In this document: in pieces, positions 748 to 8,054 of the stretch | Layout of the letters: every line of letters starts with the position of its first letter | Numbering within the stretch: position 1 is the stretch's first letter | Source of the DNA: Lachnospiraceae bacterium | GTDB lineage: Bacteria; Bacillota_A; Clostridia; Lachnospirales; Lachnospiraceae | Direction of reading: 5' to 3' | DNA: 8,054 bases | Assembly: GCA_028694115.1 (NCBI GenBank) | Contig: JAQUUB010000153.1 | Location: forward strand, 1-8,054 | Notes under the pieces: model-generated | What the model was told of the DNA's origin: nothing | The model's input: only the letters and a program-made list of their open reading frames with translations | Database searches by the model: none | Translations under genes and position numbers: made by a program

Positions 748-1584
748 TTATCCCTTTATCCTTTTCCAATCATCCTCATGCGTTTTCAAACCACCTGCCC
801 TATTCCTAATTCCGAAATCACCACAGTGAGCCAATGCATATATTCTTATTGATTTATCTTCGATTTTGGCAACTTCATATGGATTATTTTGATTCCTCAT
901 ACTATCCAAATAATCCATGTATTTTCCGTTATATGGAAGTTTTTCGTCTGATAATGCCTTATGTACACAATCAAAGGTAGTTTGACCTAAGCACAAAATA
1001 TTATCTGGTTTCAAAATATTACATAATGTATTGAAATACTTTGTATCTTCCTTCATACGCGGATTATTCATTCCGCCAGAGATCCTTCCTGTACGATACC
1101 CTAGACAAAAATTGGTAAAGAACAATTCATTATATCGCTCACTTCTTATATCATATTTCTTATCCAGAATTTTAAATAACTCTGCAAGATTTGAATCCGT
1201 ATCATTTTCTTTTGGCTTAAGGCCATCTAAATACTGAATACTTGAATTGGTATTCATCTGTATAATATTTTTCATTATTTGTGATTCAAAATTAAAGGGA
1301 TTTCCCCAATCCTGACCAACGACTAAATACTTAATAGCAGGAGTTTTCTTTTCATATCCTAGTCCCTGCCAATATGTCCAAAGATTTATTTCATGGCATA
1401 TGTTTATTCCCTTGTCATCAATTACGATTTCTCCTTGTTTGTTCACAAATGTATGAATATTACACCATGCAGGTGCTACATCATTCTTTTTATTAGAACG
1501 CGTAGTATAAGCTTCTACTACATCGGCTACCAATTTTTTATAATCATCACTTTTTTTCTGTGAGAATTCCTTCGGACATTCCAT
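748..1584 (-). CDS. Uracil-DNA glycosylase superfamily-like protein
   Basis: 278 residues. Several segments match the uracil-DNA glycosylase fold in order: a first-strand motif VVGQDWGNP at 88-96, equivalent to the water-activating GQDPY loop of family 1 with D92 as the likely catalytic acid; FFTNFCLGYR at 155-164; a central strand LKPDNILCLGQ at 191-201; and LAHCGDFGIRNR at 251-262, in the place of the HPS DNA-intercalation motif, with H253 the candidate active histidine. The enzyme would excise a base from DNA, or act on a nucleotide-like substrate, in the cytoplasm. It differs from housekeeping UDGs in both motifs, so the substrate is unknown. The ATG at 1584 abuts the TAA of the WYL gene, and GGGGAGG lies just before it inside that gene, so translation is probably coupled. 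It is the last gene of the four-gene operon. Fold assignment is fairly secure; activity is inference. Confidence 0.72.
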   Translation of the reverse strand: MECPKEFSQKKSDDYKKLVADVVEAYTTRSNKKNDVAPAWCNIHTFVNKQGEIVIDDKGINICHEINLWTYWQGLGYEKKTPAIKYLVVGQDWGNPFNFESQIMKNIIQMNTNSSIQYLDGLKPKENDTDSNLAELFKILDKKYDIRSERYNELFFTNFCLGYRTGRISGGMNNPRMKEDTKYFNTLCNILKPDNILCLGQTTFDCVHKALSDEKLPYNGKYMDYLDSMRNQNNPYEVAKIEDKSIRIYALAHCGDFGIRNRAGGLKTHEDDWKRIKG

Positions 1585-2577
1585 TTATCTTTCCTCCCCA
1601 TATTTTTTCTGCATCTCATTAATTGCTTCCTGAATCTCAGTTCTCAGCTGCAAGGGTTCCAAAATTTCCACAAATGGTCCATACTGCAATGCCCAATAGT
1701 ACATAGCTCTTTCATTACAGCGAAGCGTGATAAGGTATTCTTCTTCCTTCTCACCCAAAATTTTGAAATCTTTTCCAAACCAATCAATTAGTTCGTTCAT
1801 TTGGCTCTTCTTTGCCAGAAGTTTTATTTGTACTGATTCTCCGCTAAACATATAAATATGTTCAGCCATATGTTTGGGAAGAGAAAACCCATTCTCCATT
1901 CCCTTAATCTGACTTATTCGTTTTGCTTTCTCTGGGAGTATTTCTACATCAGTCATTCGATCAATCCGATAATGAGAAATATCATCGTACTTGTCATAAT
2001 TTCCAATCAGGTAATAGCGGCCATTGTTTGCAACCATTTGATAAGGATTTACTATATATTTTCCTTCTCTTTTATGATGAAGTTTGAAGTCTGGTCCATA
2101 ATCGTTATAGTCAAAAGAAATCTTCTTTTTCTGACTAATTGCATCATTGATATCATTCAGAGCATACATAACCTGCTTATTGTCTGCATGAAATAGTTCC
2201 GGCAGGTTTGCAACATGAGAAACCTTTACATTAAAATACTTGTTTGCCTGCGCTCGTAGCTTATCGATTAAGATCTTCGCCTGTCCGGAAGTAATATTTT
2301 TTGAAAAGAGAACACTGTCAATTAGAAGTCTTAGTTCCACTTCCTCAAACTCTCGTTCCACAAGGTAGCATCGTTTCTCCATTGAGATGTCATATCCCAT
2401 TTCCTTTAAAGACAAAATATTGCTTTTAACAGATCTCCTATCGCATTCCATCCCATAGTTCTGGTACAGAAGCTTTATAATTTCTTGTTGCGTCAAACGA
2501 TGATTCTCATCTGAATACTCTTGCAAAATTTCAAGAATCAACATATTTAGCATCTTTTTATTACCGGTAGCATACAT
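1585..2577 (-). CDS. WYL-domain transcriptional regulator
   Basis: 330 residues, the usual length for this family. An N-terminal winged helix-turn-helix spans about 5-75, with LTQQEIIKLLYQNYGMECDR as its core and RRSVKSNILSLKEMGYDI as recognition helix and wing entry. A WYL domain follows at about 135-215: YIVNPYQMVANNGRYYLIGN (174-193), in which YYL replaces the eponymous WYL triplet, then SHYRIDRM (201-208). A WCX extension lies at about 245-325, with PFVEILEP (301-308). WYL domains are known to sense nucleic acids or nucleotides and commonly control phage-defence operons. The ATG at 2577 has GGAG ten bases upstream. It starts 32 nt after the 136-residue gene and ends base-to-base with the glycosylase-like gene, so it probably regulates this operon, though no matching operator is obvious. 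Confidence 0.92.
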   Translation of the reverse strand: MYATGNKKMLNMLILEILQEYSDENHRLTQQEIIKLLYQNYGMECDRRSVKSNILSLKEMGYDISMEKRCYLVEREFEEVELRLLIDSVLFSKNITSGQAKILIDKLRAQANKYFNVKVSHVANLPELFHADNKQVMYALNDINDAISQKKKISFDYNDYGPDFKLHHKREGKYIVNPYQMVANNGRYYLIGNYDKYDDISHYRIDRMTDVEILPEKAKRISQIKGMENGFSLPKHMAEHIYMFSGESVQIKLLAKKSQMNELIDWFGKDFKILGEKEEEYLITLRCNERAMYYWALQYGPFVEILEPLQLRTEIQEAINEMQKKYGEER

Positions 2578-2609
2578 AATATTTCATCTCCATATAATCC
2601 ACTACAAAA

Positions 2610-3020
2610 TCATTGTTCAAACCCAATCAGGCAATAATACTCTTGCTTCGAAAGATATTCATCAAGATTGTTTAAACTCACTTCTTGTTTAGAATCTCTA
2701 AACAATATCTTTGGATTTTTTATTGATGATTTTGCATAGCACTCATATCTAAGTTCAAATTTTGGTACAATATCCTTTTCAGCATAAAAATCCTTCAAAT
2801 AGCTTACCAATCCCTTTCTTCCAAATAACACGCATGCATAACCGCTAAAATACTTTACGCTACACATTGCTCCTAGTCCATTTGAACTCATCAATTCATG
2901 AAAAAGCTTATCGCTGTCAGGCAATGGATTTGTCAAAATACGTCCGTGTTTATCCTCTCCTCCAATAGCCCAATTCACGCCTTCCCTCATCTCTGCAATA
3001 TAAACATCCAAAAATGACAT
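2610..3020 (-). CDS. Hypothetical protein of 136 residues, macrodomain partner
   Basis: I do not recognise this family. The protein is small and soluble, with no signal peptide, membrane segment or cysteine cluster. It looks like a compact alpha/beta domain: an N-terminal helix (MSFLDVYIAEMREGVNWAIGG), a central beta region GAMCSVKYFSGYACVLFGRKG (50-70), a helix LVSYLKDFYAEKD (71-83), a strand pair around KFELRYECYAKSS, and a C-terminal ending EYYCLIGFEQ. The start is well supported: AGGAGG at 3027-3032 is six bases before the ATG and shares its last base with the TAA stop of the macrodomain gene, so translation is almost certainly coupled. That suggests it works with the macrodomain protein, perhaps as a binding partner or substrate-specificity subunit. 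This role is inferred from position only. Confidence 0.8.
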   Translation of the reverse strand: MSFLDVYIAEMREGVNWAIGGEDKHGRILTNPLPDSDKLFHELMSSNGLGAMCSVKYFSGYACVLFGRKGLVSYLKDFYAEKDIVPKFELRYECYAKSSIKNPKILFRDSKQEVSLNNLDEYLSKQEYYCLIGFEQ

Positions 3021-3031
3021 ATCCTACCTCC

Positions 3032-4393
3032 TTAAAATTTGACTTCAAATATTTTCTCATCATCCAAGAATGGAATAAAGGTAAATGGAACAGTGTTTCT
3101 ATATTTTCCAGGCTCTTCTAACACAATATTGCAAGCAACTATTGGATTACCATTGATATCTAGTGCTGTAAACAGTTCTATGTTGTCGCTATCTTTTTCA
3201 AATTCTACCACTTTGTTAAATACAATTAAATCTAAAACCTCTTTCGCAGCTTCACCATCGTCATTGAATTCAAATAAAGTCAGATTTTTTACCAAAACTG
3301 AATTTCTCCAATTTTCTTCATAGGTTTCCTCTACTTGCATATCTCCCAATGAGTCAAGCACATCAAGTCCATCTGTTGAAACAACAAAAATCAAGCTCGT
3401 TTCATTTGTAACTATGTCATTGAATAACTCCGCGAAAAAGACTTTCCCTGACGATAAATATCCCTGAATATATCCTACATCACCTGTTTTCTGCTTGGAG
3501 AAATCCATTTGAAGCATAGGGATCGAATCCCTTGTACTCACACACCATCCCTCTCTCCTTGCAAAGTGATAAGTCCCATTATCAATAACATTTTCAAAAG
3601 CCTCAAAATTACTTTTACTTTTGTATACCGCAAAAACAATTCTTTTAAACTTCATTACGTATCTTTCATCTATTAGCACGGAACGAAAATCCTCTGCCAC
3701 TTCGCTTGGATCATTTCCGAATGCTCCACATCCCCATGCGCCAAGAACAAGTGAATTATAGCCTTCTCTCATAGCAACAAGCGTAAGATTTCTTATCTTG
3801 TTTCTTCGTTCCGCAGACAATTCTTCTTTCGTTTTACCAGCTGCTCTGCCGTTCACATTAGGAGCTGCAACTGTTACTACAGAAGTCAGAAATGAATCTT
3901 CTAAAAATTCATGATTTTCATCCCTAAAAACTTCTACTTTCTTCGACAATAGCATATAATCCGTATCAAACTCATCTCTGTCAACTTCCGCATTTGCTCT
4001 ATACATTTCCTTTGCATTGTCAGAAGCAAGCGATGAAAACAATGTACTTGCCCTGCACAATGATTCCTCCTGTGCACTAGCACCATTTAAATATCCGCCA
4101 CCCGGATGTCTTGCATTAGCAAAATTCATAACTAAAACCTTATCACCATTTTGAGAAATGCTTTTTGCTACAGCAAAACTGTCCATATCCACAACATCAA
4201 TAGCAACTTCTCCATAATTCTCATATAAATCAGGATTTATTTCTTCAAATTCATCTGGTCTGCAAATAGTAACTTCACGTATTTCATTCTGTGATAATTT
4301 CATTTGAATACGTTTTCCATTTAAATCATAATATCCACTTTTTGAAATTCTTCCGTTTTCAATTGCAATTTCTCTACGATTTTCTCTTGTCAT
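3032..4393 (-). CDS. TIGR02452-type PARG-like macrodomain protein with unknown C-terminal domain
   Basis: 453 residues. Residues 1-270 form a microbial PARG-type (TIGR02452/DUF2263-like) macrodomain: VLVMNFANARHPGGGYLNGA (87-106) and QEES (108-111) give the PARG signature GGG-X7-QEE, with E109/E110 as the catalytic glutamates; AAPNV (176-180); and the second ribose-binding loop LGAWGCGAFGND (217-228). Such enzymes hydrolyse ADP-ribose from modified proteins, nucleic acids or poly-ADP-ribose. The catalytic residues are intact, so it is probably active. Typical family members stop near 270-290 residues. Here about 175 further residues follow, seemingly strand-rich (SLIFVVST, NPIVACNIVL, TVPFTFIPF), which I cannot assign. 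ATG 4393 has AGGAAG about eight bases upstream. First gene of the operon, with an 11-nt gap to the next. The reversed ADP-ribosylation is not evident from the window; no ADP-ribosyltransferase is recognised nearby. Confidence 0.88.
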   Translation of the reverse strand: MTRENRREIAIENGRISKSGYYDLNGKRIQMKLSQNEIREVTICRPDEFEEINPDLYENYGEVAIDVVDMDSFAVAKSISQNGDKVLVMNFANARHPGGGYLNGASAQEESLCRASTLFSSLASDNAKEMYRANAEVDRDEFDTDYMLLSKKVEVFRDENHEFLEDSFLTSVVTVAAPNVNGRAAGKTKEELSAERRNKIRNLTLVAMREGYNSLVLGAWGCGAFGNDPSEVAEDFRSVLIDERYVMKFKRIVFAVYKSKSNFEAFENVIDNGTYHFARREGWCVSTRDSIPMLQMDFSKQKTGDVGYIQGYLSSGKVFFAELFNDIVTNETSLIFVVSTDGLDVLDSLGDMQVEETYEENWRNSVLVKNLTLFEFNDDGEAAKEVLDLIVFNKVVEFEKDSDNIELFTALDINGNPIVACNIVLEEPGKYRNTVPFTFIPFLDDEKIFEVKF

Positions 4394-4694: not shown

Positions 4695-5642
4695 TTACCA
4701 TACGTACTCCTTGAGCATTTCATCAATTGAAAGTTTTACTCTATCATCTGCTTTTTCTTCATCACTGAGTGATAAAAAAACTGTCAATGGATCTACTAAA
4801 TTCCTCTTTTGAAAATTAATATAATATCCAAGTTCTTGAATAACACAACCCTTTTCCTCTCCTTTTGGGACAAGCTGCTTTTTCTTTATCTGCAATTTTT
4901 GTATTTCCTTCTTTGTAATTGCATAGGTTGGAAACGGATTATCTTCCAGCAGAGAATATTCGCAAAGAGCAGACATTCCGGCTTTTACGTCAAGTTTCAA
5001 ATCCTCTGTTATTTCAAAAGTTGTGATAACAGGATTTCTTAAAATCGAATGAATTTCTTTCCATTGTTCTTTTGGATCTCCATTCATGCTGATCACGCGC
5101 GACTTTCCCTTCATTGCAAGCACTGGCATTTCGAGATACTCTAATTCGTCAAAACACCTAGTAACTGACATTTTTGTCACATCTAAACACTCTGCAATCT
5201 TCGTTACGGACATGTCTTTCCAATTTTCATACAATGCCATTAGCAGAATTCTTTGTGTCAAATAGGAAATTTGACTAATCGGTGTCAATGTTCTATCTGC
5301 TTCACCAATTAATAATACTCCTGTAAATGGAAGATAAATCTGCTTTCCTTCTACCACAAATGGAATCCCCTCATTCAACATAACATCTTTAGAATAACTG
5401 TTTAAATTTTTAAGATATAATGCACAATTCATACCTGTCAGTTTCTCTAACTGTCTCTGATGCTTCCGCATAGATGCCAATCCGATTTTCTCTTTTGGCT
5501 CAGCCATAAGCCACTGGATACCATCCATTTTTACAGAATATAAATAATATAAACCAGAATATAAAAGTGGCAACGACTTATTCTTCTCAAATTCAGTCAT
5601 TTCAACCTTTCTTCTCAAACATTGTTCTAAATACTCTTTCAT
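4695..5642 (-). CDS. Winged-helix regulator, antitoxin-like, without adjacent toxin
   Basis: 315 residues. The middle holds a MarR-like winged helix: LTQRILLMALYENW (128-141), then MSVTKIAECLDVTKMSVTRC (144-163) as helix-turn-helix with recognition helix about 156-168, then the wing LAMKGKSRVISM (175-186). The N-terminal 120 residues and the C-terminal 110 are not assigned. The C-terminus (VDPLTVFLSLSD, then DDRVKLSIDEMLKE) resembles the end of the partial gene at 7947-8054 (VDPVSLVCSFTQ, then DERIEMCIEELLEE). The two are therefore probably one family of AbiEii-linked regulators. Unlike that copy, this one has no nucleotidyltransferase behind it; a terminator follows instead. The start is ATG 5640-5642 with AGGCGG five bases upstream. 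A perfect palindrome over the promoter suggests autoregulation. It may be a solitary antitoxin or a regulator recruited to the island. Confidence 0.78.
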   Translation of the reverse strand: MKEYLEQCLRRKVEMTEFEKNKSLPLLYSGLYYLYSVKMDGIQWLMAEPKEKIGLASMRKHQRQLEKLTGMNCALYLKNLNSYSKDVMLNEGIPFVVEGKQIYLPFTGVLLIGEADRTLTPISQISYLTQRILLMALYENWKDMSVTKIAECLDVTKMSVTRCFDELEYLEMPVLAMKGKSRVISMNGDPKEQWKEIHSILRNPVITTFEITEDLKLDVKAGMSALCEYSLLEDNPFPTYAITKKEIQKLQIKKKQLVPKGEEKGCVIQELGYYINFQKRNLVDPLTVFLSLSDEEKADDRVKLSIDEMLKEYVW

Positions 5643-5652
5643 AAAAACCGCC

Positions 5653-5689
5653 TTTTTAATTGTAACTTATTTTATGTTACAATTAAAAA
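5653..5689. promoter_or_regulatory. Operator: perfect 14-bp inverted repeat upstream of the winged-helix gene
   Basis: TTTTTAATTGTAAC (5653-5666) and GTTACAATTAAAAA (5676-5689) are perfect inverted copies around a 9-base spacer. The site overlaps the last bases of the proposed -10 box and the transcription start and ends 11 bases before the ATG, so a bound protein would block transcription. The TTGTAAC half-site is unlike the one at 154-282, implying a different regulator, most simply the protein encoded directly downstream. Confidence 0.82.
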
Positions 5690-5800: not shown

Positions 5801-6820
5801 TTATTCTTCAATCTTTAAAATATACCTGCACTTTGGAAAACCAGAACATCCATAAAACTGCTCTCCTACGTTATTTCCTTTTTTCGCAGTCCTGAGAACA
5901 AGACTCGCACCACACTTCGGACAAAGCAAATTGTCTTTTGTATCAATCATGGTTTGCTCTTCACTTACAGATTTGGCCTCAGTTTCAACCACTGTCTGTT
6001 CTTCGCACTCAGGTACCCTTTCGGTTTTAACAACCGTCTGATTCTCACTCCCGGGGACAATTTCGATTTCTTTCACTAACTCCTCATATTTTGTAAAGTA
6101 ATCTTTTCGCTCATCCTTATTTTTTGCAAGCAGTCTTTCAGCCATAAACATCATATCCTTTTTGGATGATGATATCTCCTTTGAATCCGATACCATCTTT
6201 CGGATTACCTTGATAAGCTGATCTGCTCTCAAAACCTGTTCCTTGATTTCTTTCTTAGCATATTTATCATTAACAACTGTCTTTGGATTTGCAAGAACCA
6301 CCAGTGATTTATAAAATATATCAAAAGTCTTTCTTACCATAGCCGCCATCAGCATGTTCCTATCCTCTGATTTACATTCCTTCAATACAGTCATATGCCG
6401 CTCATTCTGAGTAATAGGCGAATATATTCCTTCTTTATATTTTCTGCCTCCATACTCCATGGTACGAACGAAATTTCCTTTTGAATCAATTTCAATATTT
6501 CCAAAAAGATTTTTGCATTCAATAACAAAATTTAATTTTGAAGTCACTACCACAAAATCAATTTGTGCCCCCAATCCATCTTTGGTTTCCACGTAGATAT
6601 CACGTAATACCACCATGTTCATATTGCTGTTTTTTAGTTCAAAAAGAATATTCTCTTCTCCTACGATACCGGCTTTGGTTATAGCGATTTCTTTCTGGAT
6701 TTTTTCTTTTATGTCTTTATTCGCCCTCAGAAGTAATTCTTCAAGCTTTTTTAAATATGTATCCGCATCACTTGTTTCTTTTAAAATAATAACTTCTGCC
6801 TTTGAAAATAACCCCATCAT
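5801..6820 (-). CDS. NERD-domain nuclease-like protein with topoisomerase-type zinc finger
   Basis: 339 residues from the first ATG. A NERD domain spans about 48-150: GEE (54-56), AQIDFVVV (85-92), FVIECKN (98-104) and a downstream Q138/H142 pair. These correspond to the E, D and ExK active-site pattern of the PD-(D/E)xK-like nuclease fold, all present. A helical segment (155-250) follows. Then come three degenerate repeats of about 14 residues at 255-295 (NQTVVKTE, EQTVVETE, EQTMIDTK) forming an acidic linker. A C4 zinc finger ends the protein: CPKC at 300-303, with C325 and C331, as in the DNA-binding tail of topoisomerase I. It probably binds and cuts or processes DNA in the cytoplasm; proof of cleavage is lacking for most NERD proteins. 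AAGGGAG lies only 1-2 bases from the first ATG but is well placed for the second at 6817, so the true start is probably 6817. It is transcribed separately from its neighbours. Confidence 0.88.
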   Translation of the reverse strand: MMGLFSKAEVIILKETSDADTYLKKLEELLLRANKDIKEKIQKEIAITKAGIVGEENILFELKNSNMNMVVLRDIYVETKDGLGAQIDFVVVTSKLNFVIECKNLFGNIEIDSKGNFVRTMEYGGRKYKEGIYSPITQNERHMTVLKECKSEDRNMLMAAMVRKTFDIFYKSLVVLANPKTVVNDKYAKKEIKEQVLRADQLIKVIRKMVSDSKEISSSKKDMMFMAERLLAKNKDERKDYFTKYEELVKEIEIVPGSENQTVVKTERVPECEEQTVVETEAKSVSEEQTMIDTKDNLLCPKCGASLVLRTAKKGNNVGEQFYGCSGFPKCRYILKIEE

Positions 6821-7193: not shown

Positions 7194-7946
7194 CTATAAA
7201 TATATTTCCTTCAAAAGTTCCACACCTTGATTTCTATCAAAAGGTAAACCCATTTGGATGAGCCTTACTTCGCTTTCATCTACAGCACTGATTTCTTCAA
7301 TAAATCTATGTATGCTTTCCGTAACAAGTCCCATCGAAGCCACTTTCGTTCCATCAGTAACTATTTGAAGTAATCGAAAAACATCATATTTGTGTTTCTT
7401 TAAATCTTTTTCATTCACATGCTCGCCCGCTCTTTTACGATCTAAAAGATTGATCCAAGCATACATCTTAAAAGGAATTAAATGCTCTTCTCCTAATACG
7501 CCTATACCATTCACTACCTTTCGACCTACCATCATGAACTGGTAGAAATCATCATTTAGAAGAATAGCCGAGAGACTAGAGGTGTCATCATCAATATGTA
7601 TTGGAATAATTCCTTCCTCAATTTCAAGATGATATCCTGGCTTTCTGGAAAACAATTCAATCATCGTTGGATATCCAGATTTACCTTCTGTAAATCGATA
7701 GAAATGCATGTTTTCTTCATTCTTCCAACCACATTTGTATCCACCTTCTTTTATGTACTCCCAGAAAACAGTAGCAAACTCTGGAAAGTTGTCCTCCATG
7801 ATTAAAATCATGTCTATATCTTTTGTTGCTCTAAATGTCATATCAGCTTCTGTAAGTAAAATGTCGCAAGCCGTTCCTCCAATAATAGTATAAAAATCCG
7901 TATAGTCTCTGAATTTATCTCTAAAAGAATCTATTCCTAATACCAT
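7194..7946 (-). CDS. AbiEii/AbiGii-type nucleotidyltransferase toxin
   Basis: 250 residues of the minimal nucleotidyltransferase fold. The motif GGTACDIL (23-30) is followed by TKDIDMIL (41-48), the hG[G/S]...DxD pattern in which D43 and D45 bind metal. A third acid is offered by E97 in MIELFS. A helical C-terminal part follows with IPFKMYAWINLLDRK (157-171) and the conserved KDLKKHKYDVFRLL (180-193), typical of the AbiEii and MenT type IV toxin group. Studied members transfer nucleotides onto tRNA 3' ends and stop translation; the target here is unknown. All catalytic residues look intact. The ATG at 7944-7946 follows the TAG of the upstream gene with no gap, and GGAGG lies within that gene eight bases before, the standard coupled antitoxin-toxin arrangement. 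The gene is followed by the transposase scar rather than a clear terminator. Confidence 0.9.
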   Translation of the reverse strand: MVLGIDSFRDKFRDYTDFYTIIGGTACDILLTEADMTFRATKDIDMILIMEDNFPEFATVFWEYIKEGGYKCGWKNEENMHFYRFTEGKSGYPTMIELFSRKPGYHLEIEEGIIPIHIDDDTSSLSAILLNDDFYQFMMVGRKVVNGIGVLGEEHLIPFKMYAWINLLDRKRAGEHVNEKDLKKHKYDVFRLLQIVTDGTKVASMGLVTESIHRFIEEISAVDESEVRLIQMGLPFDRNQGVELLKEIYL

Positions 7947-8054
7947 CTATAATTCCTCCAACAGTTCTTCAATACACATCTCTATACGTTCATCTTCATT
8001 CTGGGTAAAGCTACACACAAGGGATACTGGATCAACTGCTCCATTCTTTGCAAA
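7947..8054 (-). CDS. Winged-helix antitoxin/regulator, C-terminus only
   Basis: Only the last 35 codons and the TAG stop are in the window: FAKNGAVDPVSLVCSFTQNE, then DERIEMCIEELLEEL. The stop touches the start of the nucleotidyltransferase gene, so the pair is transcribed and translated together. The tail resembles that of the 315-residue winged-helix protein at 4695-5642 (VDP, then D-R-h-x-h-x-I-x-E-h-L-x-E), so a MarR-like winged helix is expected in the unseen part. By position it should be the antitoxin and repressor of the AbiEii-like toxin. The DNA-binding part and the promoter are outside the window. Confidence 0.75.
   Translation of the reverse strand, partial: FAKNGAVDPVSLVCSFTQNEDERIEMCIEELLEEL

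Follow-up and report, generated by a model that had tools for sequence, protein, structure and literature searches.

Organization of the four-gene locus

This analysis concerns four closely spaced genes on the minus strand of an 8,054-nucleotide (nt) stretch of a Lachnospiraceae bacterium (assembly GCA_028694115.1, contig JAQUUB010000153.1), the whole of which is referred to below as the window. Gene 1 (3032-4393, 453 amino acids) encodes a PARG macrodomain with a C-terminal domain (CTD), gene 2 (2610-3020, 136 amino acids) an orphan protein, gene 3 (1585-2577, 330 amino acids) a WYL/WCX transcription regulator and gene 4 (748-1584, 278 amino acids) a protein resembling the uracil-DNA glycosylase (UDG) superfamily, each open reading frame (ORF) running from the higher to the lower coordinate. 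A preliminary description of this DNA had placed the genes on one strand with gaps of 11, 32 and 0 nt, and the ORF coordinates confirm these values for the junctions between genes 1 and 2, 2 and 3, and 3 and 4. Its statement that Shine-Dalgarno (SD) sites lie inside the preceding genes holds for gene 2, whose SD-like TAAGGAGG overlaps the gene 1 stop, and for gene 4, whose GGGGAGGA lies within the 3′ end of gene 3, but not for gene 3, because its GGAGATGA sits in the 32-nt gap; a further SD-like element, AAAGGAAG, is found ahead of the gene 1 start. The terminator proposed to separate the operon from the upstream gene is borne out by a minus-strand, terminator-like hairpin at 4618-4585, between that gene and gene 1, with 15 pairs, a predicted energy of -19.5 kcal/mol and a z of -4.7, and as good a hairpin occurred in 0 of 200 shuffles. 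Taken alone, a terminator pattern scan of the whole window gave 4 sites versus 2.7 expected. The G+C content of the four genes is uniform (0.33-0.36), and the genome relatives found are mostly Clostridia. In sum, the four minus-strand genes, their gaps, the SD-like sites and the upstream hairpin are confirmed, and we take the operon to be real.

The PARG protein and its C-terminal domain

The first gene product matches the family profiles TIGR02452 (E 2.5e-58, 197.7 bits against a cut-off of 50) and PARG_cat_microb (E 3.6e-32), and corresponds to Thermomonospora curvata PARG both by sequence (PDB 3sig, E 1.9e-39) and by fold (Foldseek match to 3sih, E 2.9e-24; AlphaFold model with pLDDT 85.2 and pTM 0.62). 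The macrodomain occupies approximately residues 1-270, and in 40 aligned homologues (alignment A2) the residues of its GGG...QEE motif, G98-G100, Q108, E109 and E110, are invariant. By family profile and catalytic motif, gene 1 is a microbial-type PARG (TIGR02452/DUF2263).

The CTD (about 170 residues, approximately 285-453, encoded at 3032-3541 on the minus strand) gave no match in Pfam and NCBIfam scans. Many of the 120 homologues listed for gene 1 share this domain, since they align over at least 90% of the query. In the Lachnospiraceae family (397 genomes, the set used throughout), the PARG profile match extends through the CTD in three PARGs (G001, G273 and G193), one of which adjoins gene 4. 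The domain also occurs without a macrodomain in two loci, where it is recovered by profile (L067_10, E 2e-42; L068_4, E 1e-40) and is both times followed downstream by the genes of a small protein and a WYL orthologue. Beyond these known cases, the CTD was found in 1 of 165 relatives of genome G136, namely G136 itself.

Other PARG homologues display different domain partners. In three loci a PARG and an ADP-ribosylglycohydrolase (ARH)-like domain appear by eye to share one frame (L064 7748-9874, L065 108-2222 and L066 7946-10024), and precomputed Pfam annotation gives the same combination for P0181. P0189 and similar homologues join PARG to a domain of ADP-ribosyltransferase type (PF03496, E 3.3e-8), so that a writer-like domain and an eraser are present in one protein.

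Gene 4 is a UDG-like protein

A profile scan placed gene 4 itself in no family above cut-off, PF03167 included. Among its homologues, P0105 exceeds the PF03167 cut-off (26.1 versus 24.3 bits), L003_12 falls just below it (23.8 bits), and among the 120 homologues listed, 5 carry PF03167 as a precomputed annotation. The predicted fold of gene 4 is the UDG fold. GQD at 90-92, N158 and H253 are conserved across an alignment of homologues (A1, n = 36), with the His motif missing in one sequence (P0085), and we take motif 1 (GQD/GEA) and the Asn and His motifs to be those of UDGs. In E. coli UDG, D64 is catalytic (PMC13160076). The A1 family profile matched no PDB sequence at E up to 1. Homologues, predicted fold and conserved active-site-type residues together show that gene 4 is UDG-superfamily-like. 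The PARG-like and WYL assignments of the preliminary description are thus upheld by profile matches, and its glycosylase-like assignment by these three features.

The family is very patchy, being present in 7 of the 397 Lachnospiraceae-family genomes and in 4 of 394 genomes of another order. Gene 4-type domains occur in fusions with ARH (P0059, L003_12), SseB (P0044), HTH_26 (P0069) and the nucleoside deoxyribosyltransferase domain PF05014 (P0005). By eye, homologues in L012, L016, L023 and L033 share a frame with an apparent short-chain dehydrogenase. A second UDG-like case, L009_6/L002_4, was considered by eye and set aside, as hhalign gave a weak result.

ADP-ribose hydrolases near members of the gene 4 family

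The preliminary description had tied the glycosylase to ADP-ribose enzymes, and the genomic surroundings of gene 4 relatives agree. Among 39 genomes carrying gene 4, in which 62 Macro, 43 ARH and 8 PARG matches were located, 10 have an ADP-ribose hydrolase of one of these kinds no more than 5 kb from gene 4, versus 0.43 expected (P 9e-12), the expected numbers for this linkage ignoring contig ends. Macro is found at this distance in G404, G003, G405, G408, G008, G326, G411, G004 and G409, with ARH also present in G004, G008 and G326, and PARG in G001; a Macro located 12 kb away in G425 was left out of the count. Six of the ten linked genomes carry one related cluster, with gene 4 copies 68-100% alike. 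After that cluster was merged, a hydrolase is near gene 4 in 5 of 34 versus 0.37 expected (P 3e-5), a count in which other related copies (for example G409, G413 and G425, 91-94% alike) still enter separately, and ARH by itself does not reach significance (1 of 34, P 0.14). As a control, at least 1 of the 39 genomes (G003) has NUDIX at a distance of 5 kb or less, versus 0.99 expected.

Direct association with PARG is seen in two forms. In Catonella morbi (L001) a PARG with the CTD adjoins a gene 4 homologue, the two genes apparently overlapping, and this homologue is the closest to the window copy (46%) among 15 genome copies compared. In P0132 the two domains are naturally fused: a UDG-like part (PF03167, E 4.8e-6; hhalign to gene 4 95.7%, E 9e-9) precedes PARG in the same protein, and the match of P0132 to gene 1 spans 94% of the latter. 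Co-occurrence of PARG and gene 4 at the level of whole genomes is weak: PARG is present in 57 and gene 4 in 7 of the 397 genomes, both are present in three (G001, G168 and G275) versus 1.0 expected, and among these the genes adjoin each other only in G001. Overall, the gene 4 family is shown to be linked to ADP-ribose hydrolases of three kinds far above chance, and what the macro, PARG and ARH folds have in common is ADP-ribose. In a separate arrangement seen in L009 and L047, an operon comprises a gene 4 homologue, a macro-HTH protein, an unclassified protein and an ARH-SseB protein, and the first and last proteins are identical between the two loci.

The WYL regulator and the block upstream of it

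Gene 3 matches WYL (E 2e-15) and WCX (E 2.4e-6). Its relatives at E ≤ 1e-30 are present in 197 of the 397 genomes, and 15 matches are close (44-65% identity, E ≤ 3.3e-89). The expectation that such a regulator accompanies defence loci is supported in a number of the 31 neighbourhoods examined, in which selected neighbors were family-scanned (20 and 10 proteins, partly the same). Families beside WYL relatives include GIY-YIG (L068), PDDEXK_4 (L072) and Mrr_cat (L074). GmrSD, an enzyme acting on modified DNA, is found with ZacB in L077 and twice in L088; Cas9 is found in L089, with homologues by clustering in L094 and L097; UvrD and PDDEXK nucleases are found in L096 and HipA in L098. An AbiEii-like gene, below its cut-off, adjoins the WYL relative in L078. 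The gene 3 WYL family is thereby shown to adjoin defence genes in several loci. Among other neighbors, L089_8 is presumably Cas1 and L080_3 presumably a sugar kinase. In L076 a PARG lies 6.8 kb from the WYL orthologue, and the protein adjoining that orthologue, L076_3 (1823-2635, minus strand), gave a by-eye impression of a UDG-like protein that hhalign did not support.

The order CTD, small protein, WYL recurs in two Lachnospiraceae genomes (L067 and L068), whose WYL proteins are 53-54% identical to gene 3. The gaps are -26 and 69 nt in L067, where the contig ends inside the WYL gene, and 259 and 71 nt in L068, where a GIY-YIG nuclease gene begins 1 nt past the WYL gene, at the position that gene 4 holds in the window. 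The small protein itself is less readily placed. Library scans of gene 2 gave no family above threshold and a weak phrog match (E 0.037), and a single homologue was found (89% identical). Neither BLASTP nor hhalign revealed kinship to the small proteins of L067 and L068, a weak test given two near-identical rows.

Comparison with known systems

Predicted ARG-centric operons combine an ADP-ribosyl glycohydrolase (ARG) with WYL or Nudix regulators, SseB-type chaperones, nucleases, Macro and NADAR, and a WYL or Nudix regulator is reported in more than 42% of these systems, themselves predictions (PMC9503650). The operon shares with them an ADP-ribose hydrolase, a WYL regulator, a small accessory protein and a variable nucleic-acid effector (PMC9503650), and their SseB and Macro partners are also found with the gene 4 family. 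Those systems further include a gene for a peptide-binding chaperone (PMC9503650); gene 2 and the CTD match no family. Like them the operon has no coupled ADP-ribosyltransferase or sirtuin among the eight proteins scanned in the 8 kb of the window. It differs in that these eight proteins include PARG and not PF03747, and in that its effector is a UDG-like glycosylase, whereas theirs is described as a restriction-type nuclease (PMC9503650). Because the central ARG domain is absent, we do not file the operon as an ARG-centric member; the words glycosylase, UDG, PARG and DUF2263 are absent from the main text of that report.

Brig glycosylases have been reported beside ADP-ribosyl glycohydrolases, and the published descriptions of Brig1 and Brig3 share with the operon a UDG-superfamily glycosylase and a predicted glycohydrolase nearby (PMC11078745, PMC13160076). 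The Brig1 pocket has E147 where UDGs often have Asn (PMC11078745); gene 4 appears to have Asn in the corresponding motif. Against glucosylated DNA Brig3 acts together with BapA, which deglucosylates the DNA before Brig3 excises (PMC13160076). An operon that includes a hydrolase is common to both cases; BapA, which trims a base decoration, is a glucosyl hydrolase, whereas the window hydrolase is a PARG (PMC13160076). With DarTG and DarT-NADAR, as far as their descriptions go, the operon shares the theme of reversing nucleic-acid ADP-ribosylation, but it has PARG and a UDG-like protein in place of DarG or NADAR, and no DarT or other ADP-ribosyltransferase toxin gene was recognized among the window proteins scanned. 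BrxR/CapW-type regulators are WYL repressors that, like the gene 3 relatives, are found beside varied defence systems (PMC9122601). Bacterial PARGs are active on 2′-OH- and phosphate-linked ADP-ribose, and they protect E. coli from the ADP-ribosyltransferase (ART) toxin RhsP2 and clean phosphate ends (PMC11833690). The preliminary description's statement that no described system has this gene set holds for the exact set in the literature searched, which also contained no report of a macrodomain or ADP-ribosylglycohydrolase combined with a DNA glycosylase in this sense; it needs qualification in that operons with a hydrolase and WYL have been predicted (PMC9503650) and Brig genes lie beside glycohydrolases (PMC11078745, PMC13160076).

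Interpretation and alternative explanations

We regard the operon as a probable variant of the immune or repair modules already known to handle chemically modified nucleic acid, and by analogy it may work like the predicted ARG-centric systems and the Brig glycosylases. Our leading reading, to which we give slightly less than an even chance, is of an accessory, WYL-controlled conflict operon of the defence type centred on ADP-ribose. Gene 4 is best read as a putative base-excising glycosylase that would serve as the nucleic-acid effector of this module, and removal of ADP-ribosylated bases is possible. The WYL protein would keep the genes repressed until a ligand resembling a nucleotide appears in the course of infection or attack; PARG would then remove ADP-ribose, or a comparable group, carried by nucleic acid or protein, and gene 4 would flip out and excise a modified pyrimidine, leaving an abasic site that may block invader DNA or start repair. 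This order of trimming and excision is modelled on Brig3-BapA, and the CTD and gene 2 may be accessory binding or adaptor parts. A more specific proposal, which we regard as unlikely, is that a new UDG-superfamily clade and the PARG, macrodomain and ARH hydrolases form an ADP-ribose-linked base-excision pathway, in which the hydrolase would trim and the glycosylase excise pyrimidines that are ADP-ribosylated or bear an ADP-ribose-like hypermodification, a form of inducible immunity that a WYL protein would switch. The reading of the operon given here, if right, would bring together two recent lines of work, on antiviral DNA glycosylases of the Brig type and on the reversal of ADP-ribosylation in immunity. 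The occurrence of predicted glycohydrolases beside Brig1 and Brig3 is left unexplained in the reports of those systems (PMC11078745, PMC13160076). Here an independent clade of glycosylases is associated with hydrolases of three kinds, in one case within one polypeptide, so that the link could be probed using small proteins and defined substrates.

Several observations weigh against a defence operon centred on ADP-ribose. The full four-gene set is seen only once, in the window. The preliminary description's idea of one four-gene system is not supported as a conserved one: a WYL gene at 5 kb or less from gene 4 is seen in 0 of the 39 genomes, many of whose contigs are short, and gene 4 is present in 0 of the 31 WYL loci. 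Likewise 29 of the 39 genomes, again with many short contigs, have no ADP-ribose hydrolase within 5 kb. No gene 4 homologue was detected in phage or plasmid collections or viral contigs at the search sensitivity used, nor did P0121 match a viral contig. The WYL relative in L099 has no evident defence gene beside it, and by eye the same is true of L080, L081 and L083. In the published accounts the Brig1 or Brig3 glycosylase alone defends, joined by BapA where the DNA is glucosylated, the glycohydrolase gene being set aside as not needed (PMC11078745, PMC13160076), and the PARGs tested remove O-linked ADP-ribose and are inactive on ADP-ribosyl-uracil (PMC11833690, PMC13036486). Lastly, OGG1 near gene 4 in L022 and a YfbR-like match below cut-off in L014 suggest housekeeping repair or pool cleaning.

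The operon could instead provide repair of, or immunity against, nucleic acid ADP-ribosylated by the ART toxins of competitors, with PARG taking O-linked adducts (2′-OH, phosphate ends) and gene 4 excising bases with N-linked ones that are beyond PARG, an explanation that we consider unlikely. It would account for ADP-ribose as the shared theme of the folds near gene 4 and for the reported action of PARGs against RhsP2 and at phosphate ends; because those enzymes are inactive on ADP-ribosyl-uracil, a second enzyme would complement them (PMC11833690, PMC13036486). Yet we know of no glycosylase with activity on ADP-ribosylated bases, an ART gene was not recognized among the window genes scanned, and the WYL link indicates phage defence equally. 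Sanitation of bases or the nucleotide pool, with gene 4 removing damaged pyrimidines as a repair glycosylase or as a nucleotide N-glycosidase and the ADP-ribose hydrolases recycling NAD-derived damage, and with no role in defence, would fit the OGG1, PF05014 and sub-threshold YfbR-like cases, but the patchiness of gene 4 and the defence-rich surroundings of the WYL relatives make it rather improbable.

It is more doubtful still that an unrelated block of CTD/PARG, small protein and WYL met the glycosylase by accident in a defence island. The four-gene set was not found again and separate AbiE-like and NERD genes are abundant in the window, as accident would predict, but the 0-nt junction of genes 3 and 4 with its SD inside gene 3, the independent adjacency (L001) and fusion (P0132) of PARG and glycosylase, and the strength of the link between gene 4 and hydrolases all argue otherwise. 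The preliminary description would have taken rare adjacency of the homologues elsewhere as a sign of chance assembly, and on this point the outcome is divided, because the full set is not conserved and its two halves are; smaller blocks of the operon reappear at rates above chance. Its overall interpretation, a system that recognizes and removes ADP-ribosylated or otherwise modified bases in defence or repair, is partly supported.

Surroundings of the operon

Upstream of the operon, all on the minus strand, lie a helix-turn-helix (HTH) protein gene (4695-5642; homologue of L078_13, 29% identity, E 3e-31), a gene for a NERD nuclease-related domain with a Top1-type zinc ribbon (5801-6820; Pfam NERD E 7.9e-16, Zn_ribbon_Top1 E 2.6e-12) and a weakly assigned AbiEii-like nucleotidyltransferase gene (7194-7946; PADLOC AbiEii E 0.0033, 45% identical to L078_12). 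In L078, where L078_13 is the gene ahead of the AbiEii-like gene, the homologues of the window HTH and AbiEii-like proteins adjoin each other and a WYL orthologue, which suggests that the operon is set in a defence island. A partial minus-strand ORF at 7947-8054 ends like the HTH protein of 4695-5642 (VDP.S motif); owing to this shared ending, it is probable that the AbiEii-like gene is paired with an HTH gene of its own, the arrangement seen in L078.

At the other end of the window, the start of a minus-strand ORF at 2-136 resembles by eye the N-terminus of an AbiEi-type antitoxin. Between this ORF and the operon, in an AT-rich gap upstream of the former and downstream of the latter, a 35-nt direct repeat (163-197 and 248-282, 80% identical) with inverted arms is a possible operator. 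Just ahead of the HTH gene, a 17-nt inverted repeat at 5653-5689 with a 3-nt loop (94% complementary) may be an autoregulatory operator.

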